Origin: Candidatus Yonathbacteria bacterium
GTDB lineage: Bacteria > Patescibacteriota > Minisyncoccia > Phycocordibacterales > UBA1550
Direction of reading: 5' to 3'
DNA: 32,738 nt
NCBI GenBank assembly: GCA_016215205.1
Contig: JACRKU010000004.1
Location: 1-32,738, forward strand
Shown one piece after another: positions 17,336 through 28,676 of this stretch (position 1 is its first letter; the number at the start of each line of letters is the position of its first letter). Position numbers and translations under genes: made by a program. The notes below the pieces were generated by a model that worked only from the letters and a program-made list of their open reading frames with translations, did not search any database and was not told the origin of the DNA.

Positions 17336-18793
17336 TTAATGTGCTTGAGTGTAGTATATCGCACCGGGGTCTCTTAGGCTAAACGACACATTAAACGGGA
17401 TATTCGCCTCTTGTTCAAGGTTGGTTAAAGGAAGCTCAATCCCCGAAAGAAGCGGCGAATCCTGCAGGATTTTTTTATAATTATTGAGGGTCGGGCGGTT
17501 TACTGCGGTCCCGGCAAGAGAAATTCTTCCTGCAATGTTTGGCGCCGTAAACATAGAGACCGTGATTCCACTAGGGGTGCGAGCGAGGAGCTCCGTAAGC
17601 ACAGTGCTCCATACCGGCATTTGCGCGAGAAACATCGCGCCCGTCTCGGTAATGGCGTTTGTGTTGCGGATTTGTTCCTCTTTTTCAGCAAGCTTTGGCG
17701 GAATAGCCACCGCTGAAAGAGTGGTGATTCGTTCTGATGCGCGTTGTGATAAAGAGAGCATGGAAAGGTAAGTCGCGAGGTACGCCACAACAAAAAACAA
17801 AGAAACACCAATGATGAGGTTTCTCATAAGAACGATAAAGGTCGTGGCGCGCTGATACGCATACGCTTCCTCTGTTCCGACAGGGAGGAGGGAGACGAGG
17901 TTGTCCTCGCCTTCGGGGATTTTTGCGCGAATAGCCGCCCCGAGCGGGACTAGCCATTTTGATTTCGGCTCGCTTAGCTCCGTGCGCCCAGCATAATCGT
18001 CGCGGACTTTTGCGTTTACAAGTTCCTCTTCGTGTACGATTTTTTTCGTAACAGCGGAAAGTTGCGTTTCGAGCGCCATTTTTAATTTTTTTATTTCGGA
18101 TGGAATTTTGTCTTCGGAAATAACCCGAAGAGGAAGCGTACGGGAAAAGCGTAAAACTCCGTCTTCGAGCGCGAATATCGTCGCTCCATCCGGAGTTTTT
18201 TTTGAAAAAACGGTTGTTTCTTTTGGTGTGAGCTTTACGGCGCGCGCAATACTTGCGAGATGGGATTCGAGCGCGAGGGTTTTGATACCTGCAAGCTCAA
18301 GAGCGGCAACATAACTTTGCGCGACAGTGCGCGGTATCGTAGAGAGAAGTATTTCGTTCACATGAGATTCGCTTTGGACGCGTTCCCAGTCAAGATACAA
18401 GTCTTCAGTTTTCATTGGGAGTTGAAAACTGATGGCGAGACGCATCGCTTCGGTGAGACGCACCCCATCGACTGATTTCGGAAACGAAAAAATCTTTGAG
18501 TAAATTTTGTCATCAGGAATGGCAACGATGGCATAGTCGGTGCCGAGATGCGCTTTTTCCCAGATACCCTTGAGCGTTTTCCCGAGGAGGTTTATGTCGG
18601 TAACGACACCGTCTGCGATGATGTTTGCGGCAATAGGCTCCTCTATAAGGACAAGATCTTCCTCAGGTTTCTTTTCTTTTGTAGTGTGAACTCCCTTTTT
18701 CTTTGGGCGGAAAAAAGCAATGCGAACAACCGAGTCGCTGATTTCTATTCCCGCAACACGTTTTTCTTTTGTGAGAAGATTTAAAATGTTCAT
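17336..18793 (-). CDS. pilM: PilM-PilN fusion protein (type IV pilus assembly)
   Basis: The 485-aa protein combines two pilus proteins that are usually separate. Residues ~1-315 are an actin-like PilM domain: VAGIEISDSVVRIAFF at the N-terminus, AIVAIPDDKIYSKIF, SFQLPMKTEDLYLDWE, and the SHLASIARAV region. One membrane helix (~323-347, NLIIGVSLFFVVAYLATYLSML) follows, then a helical linker and a PilN-like domain (WSTVLTELLARTPSGITVSMF...GRISLAGTAVNRPTLNNYKKILQDSP...). It should recruit the PilB motor from the cytoplasm and contact PilO across the membrane. The arrangement resembles GspL of type II secretion systems. It is the first gene of the minus-strand operon, behind an extended -10 promoter. 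Confidence 0.87.
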   Translation of the reverse strand: MNILNLLTKEKRVAGIEISDSVVRIAFFRPKKKGVHTTKEKKPEEDLVLIEEPIAANIIADGVVTDINLLGKTLKGIWEKAHLGTDYAIVAIPDDKIYSKIFSFPKSVDGVRLTEAMRLAISFQLPMKTEDLYLDWERVQSESHVNEILLSTIPRTVAQSYVAALELAGIKTLALESHLASIARAVKLTPKETTVFSKKTPDGATIFALEDGVLRFSRTLPLRVISEDKIPSEIKKLKMALETQLSAVTKKIVHEEELVNAKVRDDYAGRTELSEPKSKWLVPLGAAIRAKIPEGEDNLVSLLPVGTEEAYAYQRATTFIVLMRNLIIGVSLFFVVAYLATYLSMLSLSQRASERITTLSAVAIPPKLAEKEEQIRNTNAITETGAMFLAQMPVWSTVLTELLARTPSGITVSMFTAPNIAGRISLAGTAVNRPTLNNYKKILQDSPLLSGIELPLTNLEQEANIPFNVSFSLRDPGAIYYTQAH

Positions 18794-18865: not shown

Positions 18866-21301
18866 ATGAAACTTCGCACGAAAGCCACACTCTTTTTGGG
18901 GACGCTCCTTATCGCAACAGAGCTCGTCATTATTTTTTCTATGGAATATATTATGGGCGGCACATTGAAAACCGAAGCGATTAACACGCTTCGCTCACAT
19001 ACTGAACAGGTCGAAAGTTCATACGGCATTTTTTTGAAAAGCTTAAAGAGAGAAACCCTTGACTGGACAGCTGATCAGGCCCTCGAGCGTATTATAGAGG
19101 ATTTGCTTGCGGCAGAAGATGGCACCTCCGCCCGCACCCGTGCCACAAAAGAGTTTGCGTCATATGTTACTGGTAAAAAAATGCCGTATGACAAGTCAGT
19201 CCTCATGGCTGATATTTTGGATAAAAAAGGCATCGTTATCGCTTCTACACGCTCGGCGCGCATCGGCACTGATGAATTAAGCGAAGAAACTCTTCTCAAG
19301 GCGCACAATTTCAGCAAGACCATTGTTTCGGAGCTTGGCGAGACATTTGTAAAGAGCATTATTTTTGAAACAGACGAGACTCCCGAGCCGATGATTCACG
19401 TGACGGTGCGGTTTTTTAGAAATAATGCTGATGGAACACACACACCACTTGATGCCGTTCTTCTCGTACACTTTTTGAGTGTTGAAGAAATCACCACCGT
19501 GCTTTCAGGTGAAGCGTATCTCCAAGCAGGTGCGACTACCGGCAAAACGTTTTTAGAAAAAAATACCTCCTCCGATATTTATTTAGTTAACAGCGAGAAG
19601 CTTATGGTCACCCCATCGCGTTATGTTTCAGACATAAAACAACAACAAAAAGTTGACACGCTTCCTGTGCGTGAATGCTTGGAAAATGACAAAGAAATAG
19701 ACCAAGAATACGACAACTATCGAGGGACGCGCGTCCTAGGGGCTTCAGTATGTTTTCCGGATGACAAACTCGTGCTTATTACTGAAATAAGCAAAGATGA
19801 AATTCTCGCCACTTCTAGTGTAATAATGAATTCGATTATCGTCTTCGGTGGAACCATCGCGCTTTTTGGGATTGTTGTTATTGCAATCTTTTTTCGTCGG
19901 CCACTTCAACATATTGAATATATCGGTGCGGCCGTTATGCGAATAATGAATGGAGATTTTAATGTAAAAGTAAAAGTGGATACAAAAGATGAGATTGGAA
20001 CTCTCGCTACAATGTTTAACAAAATGGTTCTTTCTGTACGTCAGAACCAAGAGGCAATGCAAGAATCTAAACGCAAACTCGAAGAAAATGAGAATGTGCT
20101 GAAGAAAGACATTCTCGAGCACGAGAAACAGCAAAAGTTTCTTGAGCAATCAAAAAAGGCGACATTGAATTTACTTGAGGATTCATTTGAAATAAAACAA
20201 AAGCTTGAAGAGGAAGGGGATAGACTGCAAACGATACTTGCTTCCATCGAAGACGGACTTATTTTAATTGATACCGAGTATAAAATTGTTTTGGTAAACG
20301 CAAGAACACTCAAAATATTCGCAATGCCAGTCACGGATGTCCTTGGTAAAGATTTGCGCGATATTATGAAGCTTTGTAAAAAGAAAGTGTTCCTTGAACC
20401 GAGAGAATGGCCAACCGAAGAAGTTTTCATAACAAAGAAAGCGATTACCACGACACTTGAAAATGATTTTTGCATCACTACAAAAGGTCTGGATACACAG
20501 CTTCCTGTCGCGTTCTCTTTCGCGCCTTTGGCCGGGAAATTTTCAGGAATTGTTGTTATTGTTCGTGATGTAACCCGAGACCGCGAGCTCGACGAAGCAA
20601 AGTCCGGATTTGTTTCCGTGGCATCGCACCAGCTACGCACGCCGCTTACCTCCATTCGCTGGTATTCGGAGATGCTTCTCTCCGAAGACGCAGGCGCTCT
20701 CAATCCGTCTCAAAAAGATTTTATGAATGAAATCCACGGCGGCGCGGAGCGTTTGTATCAAACAGTGGATCTCTTGCTCGGCATTTCGCGCGTTGAAAGC
20801 GGGAAGTTGAAGGCGGACAAGACTCCGATAGATCTCGGCGTGTTTACAGCTGAAATTAGAAAAGAGCTTGCGCCGCAAATTGACGAAAAGAATCTCGCGG
20901 TTACCGTGGCTCCTCCGGAGCGAGACCCTGTCGTTGTGTGGCTTGACCCGCTCACCCTTCGTCAGGTTGTGCTCAACTTATTTTCCAATGCTATTCGCTA
21001 TACGAACGAAAAGGGGATTATTGAAGTGAAATGGCGGGCGAGCGAAGACGGGAAAGAAGTCGTTTATACGGTGCACGACAACGGCATTGGTATCCCGGAA
21101 GCGGTTCGCTCGCGTATTTTTTCAAAATTCTTCCGCGCGGAAAATGCGCGCGCGCAAGTGCCCGACGGTTCAGGATTGGGCCTTTCCCTCGTAAAGGATC
21201 TCGTGGAGAGCTGGGGAGGAAAAGTGTGGTTTGAAACCTCCGAAGGAAATGGCACGACATTTTTCTTTACAGTTCCACTTTCAACGCAACTCGCCAAATA
21301 G
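18866..21301 (+). CDS. Membrane sensor histidine kinase with HAMP and PAS domains
   Basis: The 811-aa protein has membrane helix 1 (~8-30), an extracytoplasmic sensor domain of ~285 residues, membrane helix 2 (~316-342), HAMP (~343-395, ending DTKDEIGTLATMFNKM), a charged coiled coil (~395-455) and a PAS domain (~457-570, ILASIEDGLILIDTEYKIVLVNARTLKIF). The HisKA H-box follows, with the phosphorylated His588 in SVASHQLRTPLTSIRWYSEML. The HATPase domain carries N-box NLFSNAIRYTNEKG, G1 DNGIGIPEAV, F-box FSKFFRAE and G2 GSGLGLSLVKDLVESWGG. All catalytic motifs are intact. No DNA-binding response regulator is nearby; the two REC-only proteins downstream are the natural partners. The ligand is unknown. 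The sensor region is the right size for a dCache-like domain, but I could not confirm this. Confidence 0.93.
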   Translation: MKLRTKATLFLGTLLIATELVIIFSMEYIMGGTLKTEAINTLRSHTEQVESSYGIFLKSLKRETLDWTADQALERIIEDLLAAEDGTSARTRATKEFASYVTGKKMPYDKSVLMADILDKKGIVIASTRSARIGTDELSEETLLKAHNFSKTIVSELGETFVKSIIFETDETPEPMIHVTVRFFRNNADGTHTPLDAVLLVHFLSVEEITTVLSGEAYLQAGATTGKTFLEKNTSSDIYLVNSEKLMVTPSRYVSDIKQQQKVDTLPVRECLENDKEIDQEYDNYRGTRVLGASVCFPDDKLVLITEISKDEILATSSVIMNSIIVFGGTIALFGIVVIAIFFRRPLQHIEYIGAAVMRIMNGDFNVKVKVDTKDEIGTLATMFNKMVLSVRQNQEAMQESKRKLEENENVLKKDILEHEKQQKFLEQSKKATLNLLEDSFEIKQKLEEEGDRLQTILASIEDGLILIDTEYKIVLVNARTLKIFAMPVTDVLGKDLRDIMKLCKKKVFLEPREWPTEEVFITKKAITTTLENDFCITTKGLDTQLPVAFSFAPLAGKFSGIVVIVRDVTRDRELDEAKSGFVSVASHQLRTPLTSIRWYSEMLLSEDAGALNPSQKDFMNEIHGGAERLYQTVDLLLGISRVESGKLKADKTPIDLGVFTAEIRKELAPQIDEKNLAVTVAPPERDPVVVWLDPLTLRQVVLNLFSNAIRYTNEKGIIEVKWRASEDGKEVVYTVHDNGIGIPEAVRSRIFSKFFRAENARAQVPDGSGLGLSLVKDLVESWGGKVWFETSEGNGTTFFFTVPLSTQLAK

Positions 21302-21314
21302 ATATTCACACACG

Positions 21315-22022
21315 ATGATACGCCATTTTCCCGCTCGTCTCTCCGAAAAGAAAATCATTGCAGAAAATACTGCGGAGCTGACTTTCGCTGTCTCTGACCC
21401 AGACTTCTCCTTCAAGGCGGGGCAGTATGTGTCCGTTGAAATCCCGTCTCTTTCGGAAGCCGCCGCGCCAGACAGGTATCATGATTTTTCTATTGCATCT
21501 TCTCCGTTAAACCCAAAAGAAATATCCATTGCATTTCGCATTTCAAAAAGTATTTTTAAAACAGCGCTCCTCGCGCTCCCTATTGGCGGGACGGTCAATA
21601 TTGACGGACCCAAAGGAGTGCTTGTTCTTCCCGACACAAATGTTTCCCCGCTCATTTTTGTTGCAGGCGGCATTGGCATTACCCCGCTCATTAGTATGAT
21701 AAGAATGGCGACCGAAACATCTCTGTCTCAACAGATAACGCTTTTGTACTGCAACACGAGCAAAGAAATGACCGCTTATGCTGAAGAATTGTCTATTCTT
21801 GAAAAACAAAATCCGCATTTTGTTCTTCGTAGTTTGATTGGTGCGCCCGATGAAAAACTTTTTGCGCCCTATATGCAAAAAACATCAAAAAGTTTTTGGT
21901 ATATTGTTGGCGCGCCTGCTATGACGGCGGTAGTCAAGCAAATTCTCAAAAACTTTGATATAATGGACCCACAAGTAAGAATTGAAGAATTTTCAGGATA
22001 TTTAGCGCCGTTAAAAATATGA
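21315..22022 (+). CDS. Ferredoxin-NADP reductase-like FAD/NAD(P)H oxidoreductase
   Basis: FNR-superfamily flavoprotein of 235 aa. The ORF track opens at 21231 inside the kinase gene; ATG 21315 (MIRHFPARLSEKKII), 13 bases after the kinase stop, is the sensible start. The FAD-binding barrel has AGQYVSVEIP and the flavin motif DRYHDFSIASSP, then GTVNIDGPKG. The NAD(P)H domain begins with the glycine-rich FVAGGIGITPLISMI and ends with WYIVGAPAMTAVVKQIL. No Fe-S or ferredoxin domain is attached. It would pass electrons between NAD(P)H and a flavin or protein acceptor. Its TGA stop overlaps the next ATG (ATGA), so it is translationally coupled to the PAS protein. That pairing suggests redox signalling. 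Confidence 0.88.
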   Translation: MIRHFPARLSEKKIIAENTAELTFAVSDPDFSFKAGQYVSVEIPSLSEAAAPDRYHDFSIASSPLNPKEISIAFRISKSIFKTALLALPIGGTVNIDGPKGVLVLPDTNVSPLIFVAGGIGITPLISMIRMATETSLSQQITLLYCNTSKEMTAYAEELSILEKQNPHFVLRSLIGAPDEKLFAPYMQKTSKSFWYIVGAPAMTAVVKQILKNFDIMDPQVRIEEFSGYLAPLKI

Positions 22023-22564
22023 TAAGTCTTATTAATAAGTACAAGTCAAAACAGCTCGACCTAAACCCTAATGTATACGAGGCAATTATTGGGGCGCTTG
22101 CGGAAGACTCTATCTTTTCGGTAACCGATGAAAAAGGCGACATCATTTTTGTAAATCAAAAATTTATTGAAATATCGCAATACGGAATAGATGAGCTCAT
22201 CGGGCAAAATCATCGGATATTAAAGTCCGGGCATCAACCGCAAGAAATGTTTGTCGAGATGTGGGCGACTATTTCGCGTGGCAAGATGTGGAGAGGGGAA
22301 ATTAAAAATCGCGCAAAAGACGGGAGTTACTACTGGGTTGATGCGACGGTCGTTCCTATTTTGGGAGAAGACGGGAAGATTAAAAATTACGCCGCACTCC
22401 GAATCGTCATTAATGATAAAAAAGAGCTTGAAGAAAAACACAAAAAACATATAGAGGAACTTGAAAAAATGAATAAGCTTACGGTGGACAGGGAGCTGAA
22501 AATGATAGAGCTAAAAAAAGAAATCAAAACCCTGAAAGAAGAGTTGGCGAAAGCGAATGAGTAG
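22019..22564 (+). CDS. PAS domain protein with C-terminal coiled coil
   Basis: The 181-aa soluble protein is one PAS domain (residues ~25-140) plus a charged helix predicted to form a coiled coil (KKELEEKHKKHIEELEKMNKL...LKKEIKTLKEELAKANE). The PAS core NHRILKSGHQPQEMFVEMWATISRGKMWRGEIKNRAKDGSYYWVDATVVP resembles the flavin- or haem-binding PAS domains of Aer-like and diguanylate-cyclase sensors. There is no kinase or other catalytic domain. It is a sensor/adaptor that likely dimerises and passes a signal by contact. The 4-nt overlap with the flavoprotein gene points to a joint function. The cofactor is not determinable here. Confidence 0.85.
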   Translation: MISLINKYKSKQLDLNPNVYEAIIGALAEDSIFSVTDEKGDIIFVNQKFIEISQYGIDELIGQNHRILKSGHQPQEMFVEMWATISRGKMWRGEIKNRAKDGSYYWVDATVVPILGEDGKIKNYAALRIVINDKKELEEKHKKHIEELEKMNKLTVDRELKMIELKKEIKTLKEELAKANE

Positions 22565-22578
22565 GGTTGAGTAGAATA

Positions 22579-22587
22579 TGTTACAAT
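22579..22587 (+). promoter_or_regulatory. Extended -10 promoter of the first REC gene
   Basis: TGT-TACAAT ends 11 bases before the ATG at 22599, predicting a leader of only a few bases. It would allow the two REC genes to be expressed independently of the kinase. Confidence 0.5.
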
Positions 22588-22598
22588 AATAAACAATT

Positions 22599-22985
22599 AT
22601 GGAAACCACCACCAGTCACAAAACAGTTTTACTTCTTGAGGACGATAAAGCGCTCAATCGCGCGATTGTGCTCAAGCTTGAGCAAGGTGGAAATCGCGTC
22701 ATCTCGACAATGCGCGCCGAGGAGGCGCTTGAAGTGTTGAATACGGAACATCCAAAGATAGACATAATTTGGCTCGACCTCCTTCTTCCGGGGATGAACG
22801 GCATCGAGTTTCTTGCCGAAATAAGGAAGAAGCCCGAATACAAAGATTTGAAAGTGGTTATTTGCTCGGTTTCCGGGCGCGAAGAGTCAAAGGGCGTAGC
22901 GCGCGAGCTTGGAGTCGTCGATTATTTGGTAAAAAGCGATTATGATTTGAATACGATTGTGGGCAAGGTTTTGAGTTATGCGTAA
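22599..22985 (+). CDS. Stand-alone response regulator receiver (REC) protein 1
   Basis: The 128-aa protein is a REC domain only. Acidic pocket EDD (LLLEDDKALN, ~15-17), phospho-acceptor Asp in IIWLDLLLPGMNG near residue 56, Ser in the switch position (VVICSVSG) and the conserved Lys (VDYLVKSDYD) are all present. With no output domain it must act by protein-protein contact, like CheY, PilG or PilH, or serve as a phosphate sink. It is followed after 14 nt by a second REC protein. Confidence 0.92.
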   Translation: METTTSHKTVLLLEDDKALNRAIVLKLEQGGNRVISTMRAEEALEVLNTEHPKIDIIWLDLLLPGMNGIEFLAEIRKKPEYKDLKVVICSVSGREESKGVARELGVVDYLVKSDYDLNTIVGKVLSYA

Positions 22986-22999
22986 CTATTACATATAAT

Positions 23000-23380
23000 A
23001 TGGCAGAAAATATGAAAAAAGTGATGATTGTGGAAGATGACGAGCACATTTCAAAGGTGTACGAGATTAAACTTGCCAAAGAGGGATTTGCCACTTCGCT
23101 CGCGGTTGACGGAGAAGAGGCAGTGGCAAAAATCACTGCCGAAAAACCCGACCTCATTATTCTGGACCTCATGCTTCCGAAAAAAGACGGCTTCGGCGTG
23201 CTTGAGGACATCAAAAAAGTTCCTGCGCTCGCGCGCATTCCCGTGATTGTACTCTCAAACCTCGGACAAAAAATCGACCAAGACCGCGCTCTCGCTCTCG
23301 GCGCAAAAGAATATCTGGTAAAGGTGGACAATCCGATTCAGGAGGTGATAAATAAGGTAAAGGGGTACTTGTATTCCTAA
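23000..23380 (+). CDS. Stand-alone response regulator receiver (REC) protein 2
   Basis: The 126-aa CheY-like REC domain has MIVEDDEHISKVYE, the phospho-acceptor Asp in LIILDLMLPKKDGFG (~residue 54), Ser in VIVLSNLG and the conserved Lys in AKEYLVKVDNP. Two in-frame starts exist: ATG 23000 (MAENMKK) and ATG 23012 (MKKVMIVEDD, the usual family N-terminus). A TATAAT at 22994-22999 directly abuts the first ATG and is better placed for the second. There is no DNA-binding output. It stands immediately upstream of the pilin genes; a palindrome begins at its stop codon. Confidence 0.92.
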   Translation: MAENMKKVMIVEDDEHISKVYEIKLAKEGFATSLAVDGEEAVAKITAEKPDLIILDLMLPKKDGFGVLEDIKKVPALARIPVIVLSNLGQKIDQDRALALGAKEYLVKVDNPIQEVINKVKGYLYS

Positions 23381-23403
23381 CTTTTGGGCAAAGCCCAAAA
23401 GTT
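23379..23403. repeat. Perfect 11-bp palindromic hairpin after the REC genes
   Basis: AACTTTTGGGC (23379-23389), loop aaa, GCCCAAAAGTT (23393-23403). The stem overlaps the REC2 stop codon and has no U-tract. It probably forms the 3' end structure of the signalling transcript. Identical-looking hairpins are often dispersed in small bacterial genomes; copy number cannot be checked here. Confidence 0.75.
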
Positions 23404-23466: not shown

Positions 23467-24162
23467 ATGAATATGAATATGAATTTACAGAATATGAAAA
23501 AGAACCGCGAGGGCGGGTTTACCCTCCTCGAGCTTTTGATCGTTATTTCCATTATCGCCATTTTGTCCGTCGCCCTTATTTTCGTTATCAACCCAGCGGA
23601 AACGCTTCGCAAGTCCCGCGATGCTCAGCGTATTTCGGATTTGAGTACACTGAAGACCGCAATTGCGCTTTATTTAACGAGTACAACGACACCATACATG
23701 GGAACTGGCAACTCAAATACTGGGTGTAAAGCAACTCCTACAGACGCATGGACCGCAGGTAAGAAAATATTTTACTCAATTTCTTCAGCTACTGCAATAA
23801 CCGCTTCTTCTACGGATGGTTGGACGGGTAACATAACTGTAGGACAGGTAAGCACGGCCTCTTTAACATTGACCGATGGTACTGGCTGGATTCCGGTAAA
23901 TTTTGACAGCCTTACGGGGGGATCCCCAATTTCAAATCTTCCAATTGACCCAACAAACACCGTTACTGTTGGAGGAGCTAATTCGGGAGACTATGTGTAT
24001 CGCTACGCGTGTTCAATAACACCACTTGCATTTGAGATTGACGCCTCACTTGAAAGTATCGCGTACGCTTCCTCATCTCAAGCAACCGATGGTGGTAACA
24101 ATGCTAGTTATTTTGAGGTAGGTACAAATCTGAAAATCATTGGCTCTGGAACTACTTTCTAA
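23467..24162 (+). CDS. Type IV pilin, major-type (copy 1)
   Basis: Prepilin of 231 aa. The leader ends KKNREGG and is followed by FTLLELLIVISIIAILSVALIFVI, with the prepilin-peptidase site between Gly17 and Phe18 and the assembly-critical Glu at +5. ATG 23494 (MKKNREGG) is an alternative shorter start. The C-terminal head is rich in Ser, Thr and Gly and has two Cys (SNTGCKAT and YRYACSIT) that may form the D-region disulfide. The motif GTGWIPVNFDSL...PISNLPIDPTNT...YRYAC is shared with the next gene, so the two are paralogues. A promoter lies upstream and the second copy starts 23 nt downstream. Confidence 0.92.
   Translation: MNMNMNLQNMKKNREGGFTLLELLIVISIIAILSVALIFVINPAETLRKSRDAQRISDLSTLKTAIALYLTSTTTPYMGTGNSNTGCKATPTDAWTAGKKIFYSISSATAITASSTDGWTGNITVGQVSTASLTLTDGTGWIPVNFDSLTGGSPISNLPIDPTNTVTVGGANSGDYVYRYACSITPLAFEIDASLESIAYASSSQATDGGNNASYFEVGTNLKIIGSGTTF
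23511..23561 (+). repeat. 51-nt direct repeat, copy 1 (pilin N-terminal helix)
   Basis: gggcgggtttaccctcctcg and the following 31 bases are identical to 24227-24277 in the second pilin. The repeat covers the cleavage site and start of the conserved helix and could support recombination between the two genes. Confidence 0.9.
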
Positions 24163-24185
24163 TCATTATTCATTAATTTATCATT

Positions 24186-24920
24186 ATGATTTCATTGAAC
24201 CTAAAAAATAAGCGCGAAGGAACAACGGGCGGGTTTACCCTCCTCGAGCTTTTGATCGTTATTTCCATTATCGCCATCCTATCAATCGCTCTCGTGTTCA
24301 TGTTGAACCCAGCGGAAACATTGAAGAAAGCCCGCGACGCTCAGCGTATCTCGGACTTGAAAACAGTAAAAACAGCGTTGGGTATTTTCCTTACGTCTAC
24401 ATCTACCCCGAATCTTCAATCTGGTACAACAACCGCAGTCTGCGTGACGAATAATAGTAATGGTACTAACCAGGCTGGGATGATTGCATATAGTGCTTAC
24501 CCTGGACCCACCACAATCACGAATACCACCTCAGGGTCAGATGGTGGTACTACTGCGAGTGCCTTTAATTCTACAGCGGGGTATGTTTCAAGTACAGCAG
24601 GAAAAGTTGATGGCAATGGCTGGATTCCAGTGAATCTGAAAGTATTAACGAGCGGAACTCCAATCTCGGCATTCCCTGTTGACCCTGTGAATACAGTTTC
24701 AACTACCGCTACTTCAACTGACCTTGTGTATCGCTACGCATGTCAAAACCTCTCAACTATAACAGGAAGACCATCGTATATCTTTGAGATTGATGCAAGG
24801 CTTGAAAGTAGCGCTTATGTTACTGAAGACGCAAAAATGTCCAAAGACGGGGGAGATAACGATAATTTATACGAATCAGGAAATAGTTTGAACCTTTTGC
24901 CAACAGGAGGCACTTTCTAG
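24186..24920 (+). CDS. Type IV pilin, major-type (copy 2)
   Basis: Prepilin of 244 aa, paralogue of the upstream pilin. The leader KREGTTGG precedes FTLLELLIVISIIAILSIALVFML, with Glu at +5. Shared blocks are NPAETL.K.RDAQRISDL, GWIPVN, PISAFPVDPVNT and VYRYAC, while the surface loops between them differ. Two Cys (AVCVTN and RYACQN) are in equivalent places. A 51-nt stretch encoding the N-terminal helix is identical in both genes. It ends 23 bases before a strong terminator, so the two pilins form one transcription unit. Confidence 0.92.
   Translation: MISLNLKNKREGTTGGFTLLELLIVISIIAILSIALVFMLNPAETLKKARDAQRISDLKTVKTALGIFLTSTSTPNLQSGTTTAVCVTNNSNGTNQAGMIAYSAYPGPTTITNTTSGSDGGTTASAFNSTAGYVSSTAGKVDGNGWIPVNLKVLTSGTPISAFPVDPVNTVSTTATSTDLVYRYACQNLSTITGRPSYIFEIDARLESSAYVTEDAKMSKDGGDNDNLYESGNSLNLLPTGGTF
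24227..24277 (+). repeat. 51-nt direct repeat, copy 2 (pilin N-terminal helix)
   Basis: Second copy of the identical 51-nt segment, 716 bases downstream of the first. Sequence on both sides diverges at synonymous positions. Confidence 0.9.
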
Positions 24921-24943
24921 TCCAATCGATATCAATTTTCTCC

Positions 24944-24985
24944 AAAAACACCCAGCTCGTCTATAGACGAGCTGGGTGTTTTTTT
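24944..24985 (+). terminator. Rho-independent terminator after the pilins
   Basis: The 14-bp perfect stem ACACCCAGCTCGTC (24948-24961) / GACGAGCTGGGTGT (24966-24979) has a tata loop and a run of seven Ts. Five preceding As also permit function in reverse. It separates abundant pilin mRNA from the downstream machinery genes. Confidence 0.95.
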
Positions 24986-25000
24986 GTTAGTATTGTTCCT

Positions 25001-25648
25001 ATGTCCCTAATTTTTGTTTTCAACAATATAAACACTATTTTAATGACAGGGTTGGCTGTTTTGGCGATTCTTGTCGCTATGCGTTTCTTGCGCCCGTTAT
25101 CGGTGAAAAATATATCCTATTGGTGGTTTGTTGGCATCGCAGTTGCGCTCTATCTTTTCTACGGCGCTTTTGTCACATGGGGACAATATTATGTATGGGC
25201 AAATGGCAACGAACTTACGAAAGTCTTTATTTCTGCGCCATTGCCCCAGGAAGCACCACTACCAGTCATTCTTGAATGGAGTCGTTCATCCTTTGAACAA
25301 CCTCTTGGATATTTTACCTACTATGTTTTTGGCAGAATTTGGCTTAACATCACCATTCTCTTTATTGTCTCGCTTTTATTTTATTCCATATTAAAATTGT
25401 GGAGTTTTTACAAAGGAGGTTTTTTGCCAAACGGACTGGAAATGATTCTTGCGCTCCTCCTCGTTGTCGGGTACCCGGGCGTCCTCATCCTTATACCACT
25501 CGGCTTTATTCTGGCGATTATTTGGTTCGGGGTTATCTATTTCAAAAATAGAACGACAGTCCAACCACCAATGTACATTGAACCCGCGTTTCTTATTGCT
25601 ACACCAATAGCACTCTTTTTTGCCAAGACATTTTTGAACTACTTATAA
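25001..25648 (+). CDS. Multi-pass membrane protein of unknown function
   Basis: 215 aa with about five hydrophobic segments (residues ~8-30, 40-60, 105-130, 145-180 and 190-213) and an extracytoplasmic loop around residues 60-105. I recognise no family. It begins 15 bases after the pilin terminator's T-run and lies between the pilins and pilB, so a role in the pilus is possible but only by position. No good promoter is visible; TAGTAT at 24988-24993 is a weak -10 candidate. It contains no Cys or recognisable catalytic motif. Confidence 0.75.
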   Translation: MSLIFVFNNINTILMTGLAVLAILVAMRFLRPLSVKNISYWWFVGIAVALYLFYGAFVTWGQYYVWANGNELTKVFISAPLPQEAPLPVILEWSRSSFEQPLGYFTYYVFGRIWLNITILFIVSLLFYSILKLWSFYKGGFLPNGLEMILALLLVVGYPGVLILIPLGFILAIIWFGVIYFKNRTTVQPPMYIEPAFLIATPIALFFAKTFLNYL

Positions 25649-25675
25649 AATTTGTCTTCGGATTTAATTTCTAAC

Positions 25676-25721
25676 TTATACACAACAGGGTAGCGCGCAG
25701 ATGAATTAGCTATGCTATACT
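25676..25721 (+). promoter_or_regulatory. pilB extended -10 promoter and upstream DnaA-box-like site
   Basis: TGC-TATACT (25713-25721) ends 9 bases before the pilB ATG, so the mRNA should be nearly leaderless. TTATACACA (25676-25684), a consensus-type DnaA box, lies about 30 bases upstream of the -10. Confidence 0.5.
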
Positions 25722-25730
25722 GTTTATGTA

Positions 25731-27446
25731 ATGCACATCGCAAAGGATACACTAAAAGCAATCGTACTTGAATCGGGACTTGTGACCGACGAAGATTTTA
25801 CTATTGCCGCGGAGGAGTCCCGCCGTTCTGGACAGTCGATACAAAATGTTCTCATTGGGAGAGGGAAGATTCCCGAAGATTATTTTGCCGAGCTTTTGAG
25901 TCCTTATTACAGCGCGCCTATAGTAAATCTCAAGAAAGAAGCGGAGACTATCAAGCCCGAAGTGCTTGAGCTTATTCCCGAGGTCTATGCAAAATCAAAA
26001 AATATCGTTTTATTTGCGTATGATAAAGAACAGGGTCGCGCAAAGCTCGCGATGCTCGACCCATTTGACTACGACACCATTGAGTATGTCCGCGCAAAAC
26101 TTGATGTGTGGGTGGACGCGTACTTGACCACATTCCCAAGCCTTCGATACGGCCTCAAACAATACAAGAAAAAAGTTGGCATCAATTTTGACCAAATTAT
26201 TTCTGAAAATGTTGAACAATCTCTCGCAGTTGCTGGGGAAGCAGATGTTGCAAAAAGCGCCGCCGCGGTGCCGATTGTTTCTATTTTAGATAATGTTATC
26301 GACCATGCGGTTAGCCTGAATACTTCGGACATACACTTTGAGCCACTAGACAAAGAACTCCTCGTGCGTTTCCGCATAGACGGCATTATGCAGGAAATTT
26401 TGAGCTTGCCAAAGGCGATTGCGCCCGTGCTTGTCGCGCGGGTAAAGATTCTCGCAGGGATGCAGATAGACGAACATCGCATGCCGCAAGACGGCCGTTT
26501 TCGTTTTGATATGGACGACGGCGGGTCTATCGATGTACGCGTCAACATTATGCCGATATTTCACGGCGAAAAAGTTGAAATGCGTATTTTGAAAGGCGCT
26601 ACGCGCCCGCTCACACTCAAAGACCTCGGTGTTTCGGACGAAGGAATCGCGATACTTTACAATGAAATAAAAAAGCCACATGGTATGGTGCTCGTTACCG
26701 GCCCCACCGGACACGGCAAGACCACGACACTCTACGCGATACTGCAGATTCTTAACACGCCTTCGGTCAATATTACCACCATTGAGGACCCGGTTGAATA
26801 TGAATTCCCGCGTGTAAATCAAACGCAAGTAAACCAAAAGGCGGGGATTACTTTCGCAAACGGCCTCCGCGCGCTCCTTCGCCAAAATCCCGACATCATT
26901 ATGATCGGAGAAATCCGGGACAACGAAACAGTGGAGATTGCCATTCACGCGGCGCTCACTGGGCATCTCGTGCTTTCGTCGCTTCACACCAACGATGCGC
27001 CGTCTGCCCTTCCTCGCCTTCTCGACATGGGTGCGCCAGCGTTCCTCCTTTCCTCAATAGTAAATCTAGTTATCGCTCAGCGCCTCGTGCGTCGTATCTG
27101 TGCTTCGTGCATCGAATCATATCCTGCAAGTCCGGAGATAGTGCGTCTCATCAAAGCGCAGATGGAACTTTCCGGGAACGCAAAAGGGAGCATTCCAGGC
27201 ACCCTCTTTCGCGGTAAGGGGTGCAAGGTGTGCGGCAATTCGGGATTTCAGGGGCAAATTGGCATCTTTGAGTTTTTTCGTATTACCGATGCAATTCGTG
27301 AACTCATTCTTCGCGAAGCAACAGTAGGTGAAGTGCGTAAAAAAGCCATCGAAGACGGAATGACATCGATGTTTGAAGACGGTTTGGATAAAGTCGAACG
27401 CGGTGTCACCACAATCGAAGAAATCCTGAGAGTTGTTAATGAGTAG
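25731..27446 (+). CDS. pilB: Type IV pilus extension ATPase PilB (GspE family)
   Basis: Cytoplasmic hexameric motor of 571 aa that powers pilus assembly. The N-terminal GspE_N/MshEN-like domain spans ~1-150. The core has the Asp box (SDIHFEPLDKELLVRFRIDG), Walker A GPTGHGKTTT (~324-333, with His where Ser is common), ITTIEDPVEYEF, Walker B IMIGEIRDNETVEIA and the His box GHLVLSSLHTNDA. The C-terminal tetracysteine zinc site CASC...GCKVCG is typical of PilB/GspE and absent from PilT, which fixes the assignment. pilC follows after 12 nt. No PilT retraction ATPase is in the window. Confidence 0.96.
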   Translation: MHIAKDTLKAIVLESGLVTDEDFTIAAEESRRSGQSIQNVLIGRGKIPEDYFAELLSPYYSAPIVNLKKEAETIKPEVLELIPEVYAKSKNIVLFAYDKEQGRAKLAMLDPFDYDTIEYVRAKLDVWVDAYLTTFPSLRYGLKQYKKKVGINFDQIISENVEQSLAVAGEADVAKSAAAVPIVSILDNVIDHAVSLNTSDIHFEPLDKELLVRFRIDGIMQEILSLPKAIAPVLVARVKILAGMQIDEHRMPQDGRFRFDMDDGGSIDVRVNIMPIFHGEKVEMRILKGATRPLTLKDLGVSDEGIAILYNEIKKPHGMVLVTGPTGHGKTTTLYAILQILNTPSVNITTIEDPVEYEFPRVNQTQVNQKAGITFANGLRALLRQNPDIIMIGEIRDNETVEIAIHAALTGHLVLSSLHTNDAPSALPRLLDMGAPAFLLSSIVNLVIAQRLVRRICASCIESYPASPEIVRLIKAQMELSGNAKGSIPGTLFRGKGCKVCGNSGFQGQIGIFEFFRITDAIRELILREATVGEVRKKAIEDGMTSMFEDGLDKVERGVTTIEEILRVVNE

Positions 27447-27458
27447 CAAATCAATATC

Positions 27459-28676
27459 ATGGCAATTTTTATTTATGAAGTGTACAACAGTGACGGCGCA
27501 ATCGTGCGCGGAGAGTACGAGGCGATAACACGCGATGAAGTCGTTGAATACTTGCTTCGTCGCGACTTAACCCCCATCTCTGTTACCCCACTTAGCGGCG
27601 GGAAAAAGAGATTCAATCTCTCGATTACCTTTTTTGAAAAAATCACTCCGGTGGATATTTTGTTTTTAGTGCGCAATCTTTCCGCAACCGTCAAAGCAGG
27701 CCTCTCTATCGTGGAAGCGCTTGATATTTTAATCGCGGACACCGAAAAGAAGGTTATGAAAAATATGCTTCGCGAGGTTCAGGCCTCGGTAAAAAACGGT
27801 CAGCCCCTGTCTTCAGGTTTCGAAAATTACGCAAACGCATTTCCGCCGATTTTTTTGGGTATGCTCCGCGCGGGGGAGTCGTCTGGTCAGCTTGACCGCA
27901 CACTCGACGAGCTCGCCAAATATCTTGCAAAAGAATTCGCGCTTCGTTCAAAAGTAAAATCTGCGCTGATGTACCCGATTATCCTTCTTGTCGCGTCTAT
28001 AGGCGTGGTGTCGCTCCTTCTTATTTTTGTGCTTCCGCGTTTGACCAAAGCTTTTGAGTCGAGCGGTGTAAAGCTCCCGTTGGTCACCAAATTCTTCCTC
28101 TCGCTTTCAAATATGATGACATACAGTTTCCTTCTCGACGGAGCAATTCTGATTTTCTTGATTTGGTTTTTCCTCTATTTCCGAACGACCCGTATTGGCA
28201 AGAAGTTTTTTTTCTGGTTCATCTCACATATTCCGGTTGCAAGCGAACTGGTAAAAAAGGTCGCACTTGTGCGCTTTTCTCGCACATTGGGCAACTTGAT
28301 GGCGAGCGGGCTTTCCGCGGTTGGGTCGCTTGAGTCTTCCGCGCATTCTATTGGCAATCAAAAATACGAGACGGCGATTTTGGCGGTGGTTGATGATGTA
28401 AAGAATGGAGTCTCCATCTCGGATGCTCTTGTAAAATTTCCGGAGCTGTTCCCGCGCCTTCTTGAGAGTTTGACAATAGTGGGGGAGCGTACTGGTTCTC
28501 TATCGTCAATTCTCATTACATTTTCAGATTTTTATGAAGAAGATGTGGACAATAAACTCAAAGACCTGACCGCGGTCCTCGAGCCTGTCCTCCTCCTCAT
28601 TATGGGTCTTCTTGTGGGGTCTATAGCATTTTCAATCATCCTCCCTATTTACCAGCTCGTTGGCCACTTTATTTAA
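27459..28676 (+). CDS. pilC: Type IV pilus inner-membrane platform protein PilC
   Basis: The 405-aa protein has two repeated GspF domains (VDILFLVRNLSATVKAGLSIVEALDIL... and VALVRFSRTLGNLMASGLSAVGSLESS...) and three membrane helices (~170-195, ~225-245 and ~375-400). It forms the platform through which PilB drives pilin insertion. The N-terminal FIYEVYNSDGAIVRGEYEA is the usual PilC start. It lies between pilB and the minor prepilins, with a 1-nt gap to the next gene. Confidence 0.95.
   Translation: MAIFIYEVYNSDGAIVRGEYEAITRDEVVEYLLRRDLTPISVTPLSGGKKRFNLSITFFEKITPVDILFLVRNLSATVKAGLSIVEALDILIADTEKKVMKNMLREVQASVKNGQPLSSGFENYANAFPPIFLGMLRAGESSGQLDRTLDELAKYLAKEFALRSKVKSALMYPIILLVASIGVVSLLLIFVLPRLTKAFESSGVKLPLVTKFFLSLSNMMTYSFLLDGAILIFLIWFFLYFRTTRIGKKFFFWFISHIPVASELVKKVALVRFSRTLGNLMASGLSAVGSLESSAHSIGNQKYETAILAVVDDVKNGVSISDALVKFPELFPRLLESLTIVGERTGSLSSILITFSDFYEEDVDNKLKDLTAVLEPVLLLIMGLLVGSIAFSIILPIYQLVGHFI

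Follow-up and report, generated by a model that had tools for sequence, protein, structure and literature searches.

This locus raises the question of what a cluster of sensory and signalling genes does between two groups of pilus genes, and whether its members work as one system. The window, i.e., the whole 32,738-nt stretch of DNA analysed here, corresponds to contig C7; the genome to which it belongs is 611 kb in size. Five forward-strand open reading frames had been reported between the pilus genes in the initial annotation; they are present as described, and all their Pfam domain calls exceed the gathering cut-offs. The first gene (18866..21301) encodes a membrane histidine kinase of 811 aa with HAMP, PAS, HisKA and HATPase_c domains. 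It is followed, after 13 bp, by the gene for an FNR-type NAD(P)H:flavin reductase of 235 aa (21315..22022; FAD_binding_6 and NAD_binding_1, without Fe-S domain), whose start was set at the ATG at 21315, replacing the mechanical TTG start at 21231. The reductase gene overlaps by ATGA (22019-22022) the gene for a 181-aa PAS/coiled-coil protein of the Aer/MmoS/NifL type (22019..22564; Pfam PAS), which has a long C-terminal helix and the terminal tail LEKMNKLTVDRELKMIELKKEI; the conserved coiled-coil tail, located by a tail search and a motif scan, is encoded at 22430..22561. Two REC-only response regulators (Response_reg) complete the cluster: REC1 (128 aa, 22599..22985), 34 bp beyond the PAS gene, and REC2 (126 aa, 23000..23380), after a further 14 bp. 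Each of the five genes has intact domains and conserved relatives, so their grouping of open frames is not due to chance.

On the reverse strand, 72 bp away from the kinase gene and divergent from it, lies PilM (17336..18793; PilM_2 above the cut-off), the first of a series composed of PilM, a gene in the PilN position and a LytR_C gene. On the forward strand the flank is a pilus operon (23467..28676; N_methyl, T2SSE, T2SSF) with two pilin-like genes, p25001, PilB (T2SSE, 25731-27446) and PilC (T2SSF, 27459-28676). The 86 nt separating REC2 from the first pilin gene contain a perfect 11-bp hairpin, AACTTTTGGGC-AAA-GCCCAAAAGTT (23379..23403, forward strand), with no T run after it, possibly a terminator or a processing site; the pilins may therefore be transcribed separately from the REC genes. 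The scan for promoters and terminators gave results at about chance level.

Both proteins of a two-component pair are encoded here. The kinase is built of an extracytoplasmic domain (residues 28-320, for which no Pfam or PDB match was found), HAMP, a coiled-coil linker (KKATLNLLED), PAS, HisKA and HATPase_c, and the RECs carry phosphorylation-site motifs, with the acidic pair, Asp, Ser and Lys all present in REC1. Judged by gene order in relatives, the conserved core is PilM, divergent from the kinase, followed by REC1/REC2, the pilins and PilB. PilM and kinase orthologues are adjacent and divergent in seven loci of the genus (G002, G005, G007 contig C14, G010, G011, G012 and G013), with kinases 45-59% identical and, downstream, REC1 and/or REC2, pilins, PilB and PilC up to the contig end. 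Seven relatives, each either a member of the genus or G055, have a REC1 orthologue (58-79% identical), and orthologues of REC2 (60-85% identical) stand immediately upstream of pilins in several relatives; the gene caller takes the longest open frame, and small REC genes beneath a longer antisense frame may escape the locus listings, as is the case for REC1 on contig C15 of G007. A kinase-REC cluster beside pilus genes recurs in another family (G055). An orthologous PilB (74-91% identical) was found in ten other genomes of the genus, although two have just a partial copy where a contig ends. Eight of these ten genomes have the kinase, against none of the five that lack this PilB (Fisher p = 0.007, shared ancestry not corrected for). 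Conservation beside pil genes, the main prediction of the initial annotation, held for the kinase and the RECs and failed for the unit of five: the seven orthologous loci have the kinase-REC cluster without reductase or PAS protein, and a conserved five-gene unit was rejected.

The reductase and PAS genes, absent from all seven orthologous loci of the genus, sit, by this comparison, in an accessory-sensor position, which in relatives is empty or taken by hemerythrin or another sensor. The interval between kinase and REC genes is empty in G007 C14, G010, G012 and G013, holds hemerythrin in G005 and G011 and a GIY-YIG protein in G002, while in G008 a protein that carries the tail and matches NIT below the threshold lies between kinase and REC2. 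The two hemerythrin-domain proteins (L149:13603-14004 and L148:5406-5807), each encoded after the kinase and before REC1, are a possible oxygen or iron input. Six other genomes encode FNR and PAS domains on a single protein, and four of these proteins have a kinase on the same chain (G006, G015, G029 with an extra GAF, and G305 from outside the class). In the remaining two, an FNR-PAS-PAS-tail fusion is encoded upstream of a pilus kinase-REC cluster: immediately upstream of kinase and RECs in G055, whose locus also encodes an ABC_sub_bind protein and a Cache-GAF-tail protein, and, by a partly masked gene, in a second pilus locus of G007 (C15). Two REC-only genes come directly after the fused kinase of G029, where FNR, PAS, kinase and two RECs thus form a contiguous set. 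A literature search for reductase-PAS-kinase fusions returned nothing relevant.

The PAS protein is a good candidate for an FAD redox sensor, and we consider its predicted FAD binding highly probable. Among proteins of solved structure, it is most closely related to MmoS, Aer and NifL. The FAD contacts described for Aer include a His and an Arg that are somewhat uncommon in flavin PAS domains and that MmoS has as well (PMC9668731). Counterparts of the Aer contacts are found in H65 (H53), K69 (R57), M81 (M69), W82 (W70), N97 (N85) and R128 (R115), so that all four residues chosen as a flavin-contact test (Aer H53, W70, N85 and R115) are matched, and H65, N97 and R128 show no variation when 40 relatives are aligned. 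The AlphaFold2 model (pLDDT 88) consists of a PAS core and a single long C-terminal helix (132-180), and the top Foldseek matches for the predicted fold were 2gj3, 3ewk, 8dik and 9qq6, with NifL, MmoS and Aer ranked first. In the kinase-fused PAS domains Pro and Glu replace the Aer His and Arg, and flavin may there be handled differently or not bound. LOV photoreceptors have their photoactive Cys within a GXNCRFLQ motif; the corresponding residue in the window is His (GQNHRILK), and a LOV photoreceptor was rejected.

Elsewhere in this genome, a second kinase with its own adjoining REC-only gene (contig C5; L124:427-2181, L130:2374-2766) has a PAS domain about 71% identical over 112 residues, possibly a second FAD redox sensor. 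This resemblance, together with the REC gene next door and the orthologous loci lacking the reductase-PAS pair, speaks for the pair merely sitting in the pilus operon and serving another kinase, such as that of C5, with the pilus kinase sensing only its own extracytoplasmic signal. We regard this as unlikely, as FNR-PAS-tail fusions immediately precede the pilus kinase in G055 and in the second pilus locus of G007, and FNR-PAS-kinase fusions exist. That the PAS protein serves the pilus kinase is the reading we favor with some confidence.

The relation of the reductase to the PAS protein needs separate consideration. Relatives of the reductase in the PDB are BenC, MMO component C and the SpNOX-type domain. 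The NAD(P)-binding motif GGxGxxP is intact (GGIGITP), but the flavin-binding motif R-x-[FY]-[ST] is unmet, with His in place of Arg (H-D-F-S); the position is R in the relatives G055, G006, G015, G029, G305, G128 and G074. In a tree of reductases the four kinase fusions form one supported clade, and those of the window and G055 lack a firm placement. The tree thus does not support the window reductase as an orthologue of the fused ones, the FNR-PAS association may have arisen more than once, and reductase activity in the window, given also the His, is a prediction. The initial annotation had read the ATGA overlap as a sign that the reductase feeds the PAS sensor: the overlap is real, the PAS is of the FAD type and six fusions exist elsewhere, while the reductase does not group firmly with the kinase fusions and has His for the motif Arg. 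An ordinary flavin or metal reductase without a part in signalling, leaving the PAS protein alone to feed the kinase and to be reduced by other reductants of the cell, would agree with the lack of firm placement and with the best-scoring standalone relatives lying beside ferric-reductase-like membrane proteins. The ATGA coupling and the FNR-PAS fusions in six other genomes count against such a role, as does the failure to find a ferric-reductase-like gene within the window, and we judge it improbable; service to the PAS protein appears the likelier function, if by no great measure. Three of the standalone relatives (L083:777-2175, L082 and L084) adjoin a ferric-reductase-type membrane protein, confirmed by Pfam for L082 and L083.

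Beyond the PAS domain, the protein ends in a tail with the consensus LExxNxxMVGRELKMxELKKEI. The tail search gave 51 matches in 28 of 148 relatives, and in an unrestricted motif scan of the loci examined the tail always lay within 20 residues of the C-terminus. It is preceded by PAS, dCache-HAMP, dCache-GAF, NIT-like, HAMP or FNR-PAS-PAS domains, and none of the 41 distinct tail genes with wider context is itself a kinase. A same-strand kinase lies within two genes of 17 of the 41, directly downstream of the tail gene in 10, and seven are near pil genes; with six HATPase_c matches per genome, kinase adjacency by chance is estimated at a few percent. Gene orders near PilB are tail-kinase-REC-PilB in G049 and PilB-tail-kinase-REC in G017. 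A linker motif of the LN-x-LED type is carried by 13 of 17 kinases near tail genes vs. 6 of 23 other kinases in the loci examined (p = 0.003, a comparison confounded by relatedness). Other tail genes lack a kinase nearby and have P-type ATPases or TerC-like proteins as their neighbours, and some of the tail proteins must therefore act elsewhere or in trans. One such sensor (L193:8087-9340) has P-type ATPases, a DUF2231 protein and an HI0933-like flavoprotein as neighbours, and similar loci are L205, L206, L212 and L213. Assignment to a known family was rejected, as a PDB profile search gave generic coiled coils only and no NCBIfam model fits; the motif strings were not found in the literature searched. 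The tail is absent from 33 genomes reached via other PAS matches, and may still be present in other phyla.

What is newest about the system is the set of receptors marked by this tail, which calls for a wider census. Kinase-less receptors sharing the tail (PAS, Cache-HAMP, Cache-GAF, NIT-like and FNR-PAS) could plug into common HisKA kinases that phosphorylate REC-only regulators, several of which lie at type IV pili. Such a set of exchangeable receptors would be an alternative to CheA/CheW arrays, which are missing here; the window would be the redox version, with a dedicated reductase linking NAD(P)H status to the state of the PAS flavin. This generalization is speculative and we hold it with considerable doubt. 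If it were true, the tail would be a sequence tag for finding further receptors.

For the window itself, we propose a pilus two-component core to which a flavin redox module has been added at the accessory-sensor position. The membrane kinase would phosphorylate the two REC-only regulators, in a circuit dedicated to the adjoining pilus, and the phosphorylated RECs would have a post-translational effect on the type IV pilus machine encoded next to them. The FNR-type reductase would take electrons from NAD(P)H and so set whether the FAD of the PAS protein is oxidised or reduced. Through its C-terminal coiled-coil tail the PAS protein may in turn modulate the kinase, by way of the HAMP or linker region, in the manner proposed for CetB on CetA, and the cell may in this way tune its pili to the internal redox state. 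Counted for this explanation are the conservation of kinase and RECs next to pili, the co-occurrence of the kinase with the orthologous PilB, the six FNR-PAS fusions, the Aer contacts and fold, and tail sensors near kinases or PilB; counted against it are the seven loci without reductase and PAS genes, the many tail genes without a kinase, the His and loose grouping of the reductase, and the fused PAS domains devoid of the Aer His and Arg. Taken as a whole, the explanation is offered tentatively and falls somewhat short of being probable. If true, it would provide a concrete path for electrons between NAD(P)H and an FAD-PAS sensor, as well as a route by which such cells could steer pili via internal redox state and other exchangeable inputs.

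Each half of the proposed system resembles a known one. In the energy taxis of Campylobacter jejuni, CetA is a membrane protein on which CetB, a PAS protein encoded separately, is believed to act (PMC2628428). CetA/CetB and the window share adjacent genes for a separate Aer-type PAS protein and a membrane HAMP signalling protein, but CetA is a chemoreceptor feeding CheA whereas the partner in the window is a HisKA kinase, and only in the window is a reductase gene coupled to the PAS gene and are output genes found at a pilus locus (PMC2628428). A CetAB-like split receptor would have the stand-alone PAS protein act on a separate membrane HAMP protein; a HAMP kinase is encoded in the PAS gene's cluster, and FNR-PAS-kinase fusions occur elsewhere. 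Aer, MmoS and NifL (PDB 8dik, 3ewk, 2gj3; PMC9668731) have the FAD-pocket residues and fold in common with the PAS protein, which differs in standing alone at 181 aa, in its distinctive tail and in the adjoining reductase gene. On the output side, PilG/PilH of the Chp system are likewise two REC-only regulators tied to type IV pili, and their direct targets are still open (PMC10519157); the genome of the window, unlike that system, has no CheA/CheW, and a HAMP-PAS-HisKA kinase accompanies its RECs. No CheW domain was found in the genome, and among 99 genomes searched one has it (G047:C5:7330-7749); a chemotaxis array or Chp (PilG/PilH) system was rejected accordingly. By analogy, the system would work like CetAB, with its split PAS redox input, joined to a PilG/PilH-like output, and, CheW being absent, belongs to neither.

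PilR is a transcription factor. The PilS/PilR system (PMC6058289) resembles the window in having a membrane histidine kinase linked to type IV pili, and differs in that both window regulators are REC-only. A precedent for response regulators on the pilus motor is given by the PATAN-REC regulators, e.g., PixG, which bind PilB1 in Synechocystis (PMC12288463), while REC1 and REC2 lack the PATAN domain. A DNA-binding regulator as the true partner of the kinase, named earlier as an outcome contrary to the proposal, was looked for and rejected, since the genome has no REC protein in an open frame longer than 157 aa. The earlier argument that regulators unable to bind DNA probably contact pilus proteins is weak: the REC proteins leave no room for a DNA-binding domain, but all eight response regulators of the genome are REC-only (open frames of at most 157 aa), and what is the rule in the genome does not point to the pilus in particular. 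Neighbourhood and co-occurrence are more telling, as in the gene orders of G049 and G017 and the position of REC2 before the pilins. The RECs might instead control a target outside the pilus, e.g., through a phosphorelay to other proteins, and owe their place to gene order alone. REC-only regulators distant from pilus genes, the hairpin between REC2 and the pilins, and the fact that REC-pilus contact is a prediction weigh in its favour; the conserved neighbourhood, the joint presence with orthologous PilB and the further tail-kinase-REC sets adjoining PilB in G049 and G017 make it quite unlikely. Action of the RECs on the pilus is thus reasonably likely, and kinase-REC clusters are kept beside pili in this genome and its relatives in spite of this genome's lack of CheW and of any response regulator large enough for a DNA-binding domain. 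Elsewhere in the genome, a REC2 paralogue (66% identical; contig C19, L132:3041-3418) lies away from the pilus, beside genes for an EF-G-like and a small membrane protein, and on contig C22 (L133:2680-3093) a REC-only gene is embedded in a second pilus-type operon, between PilB-like genes and a PilC-like gene.
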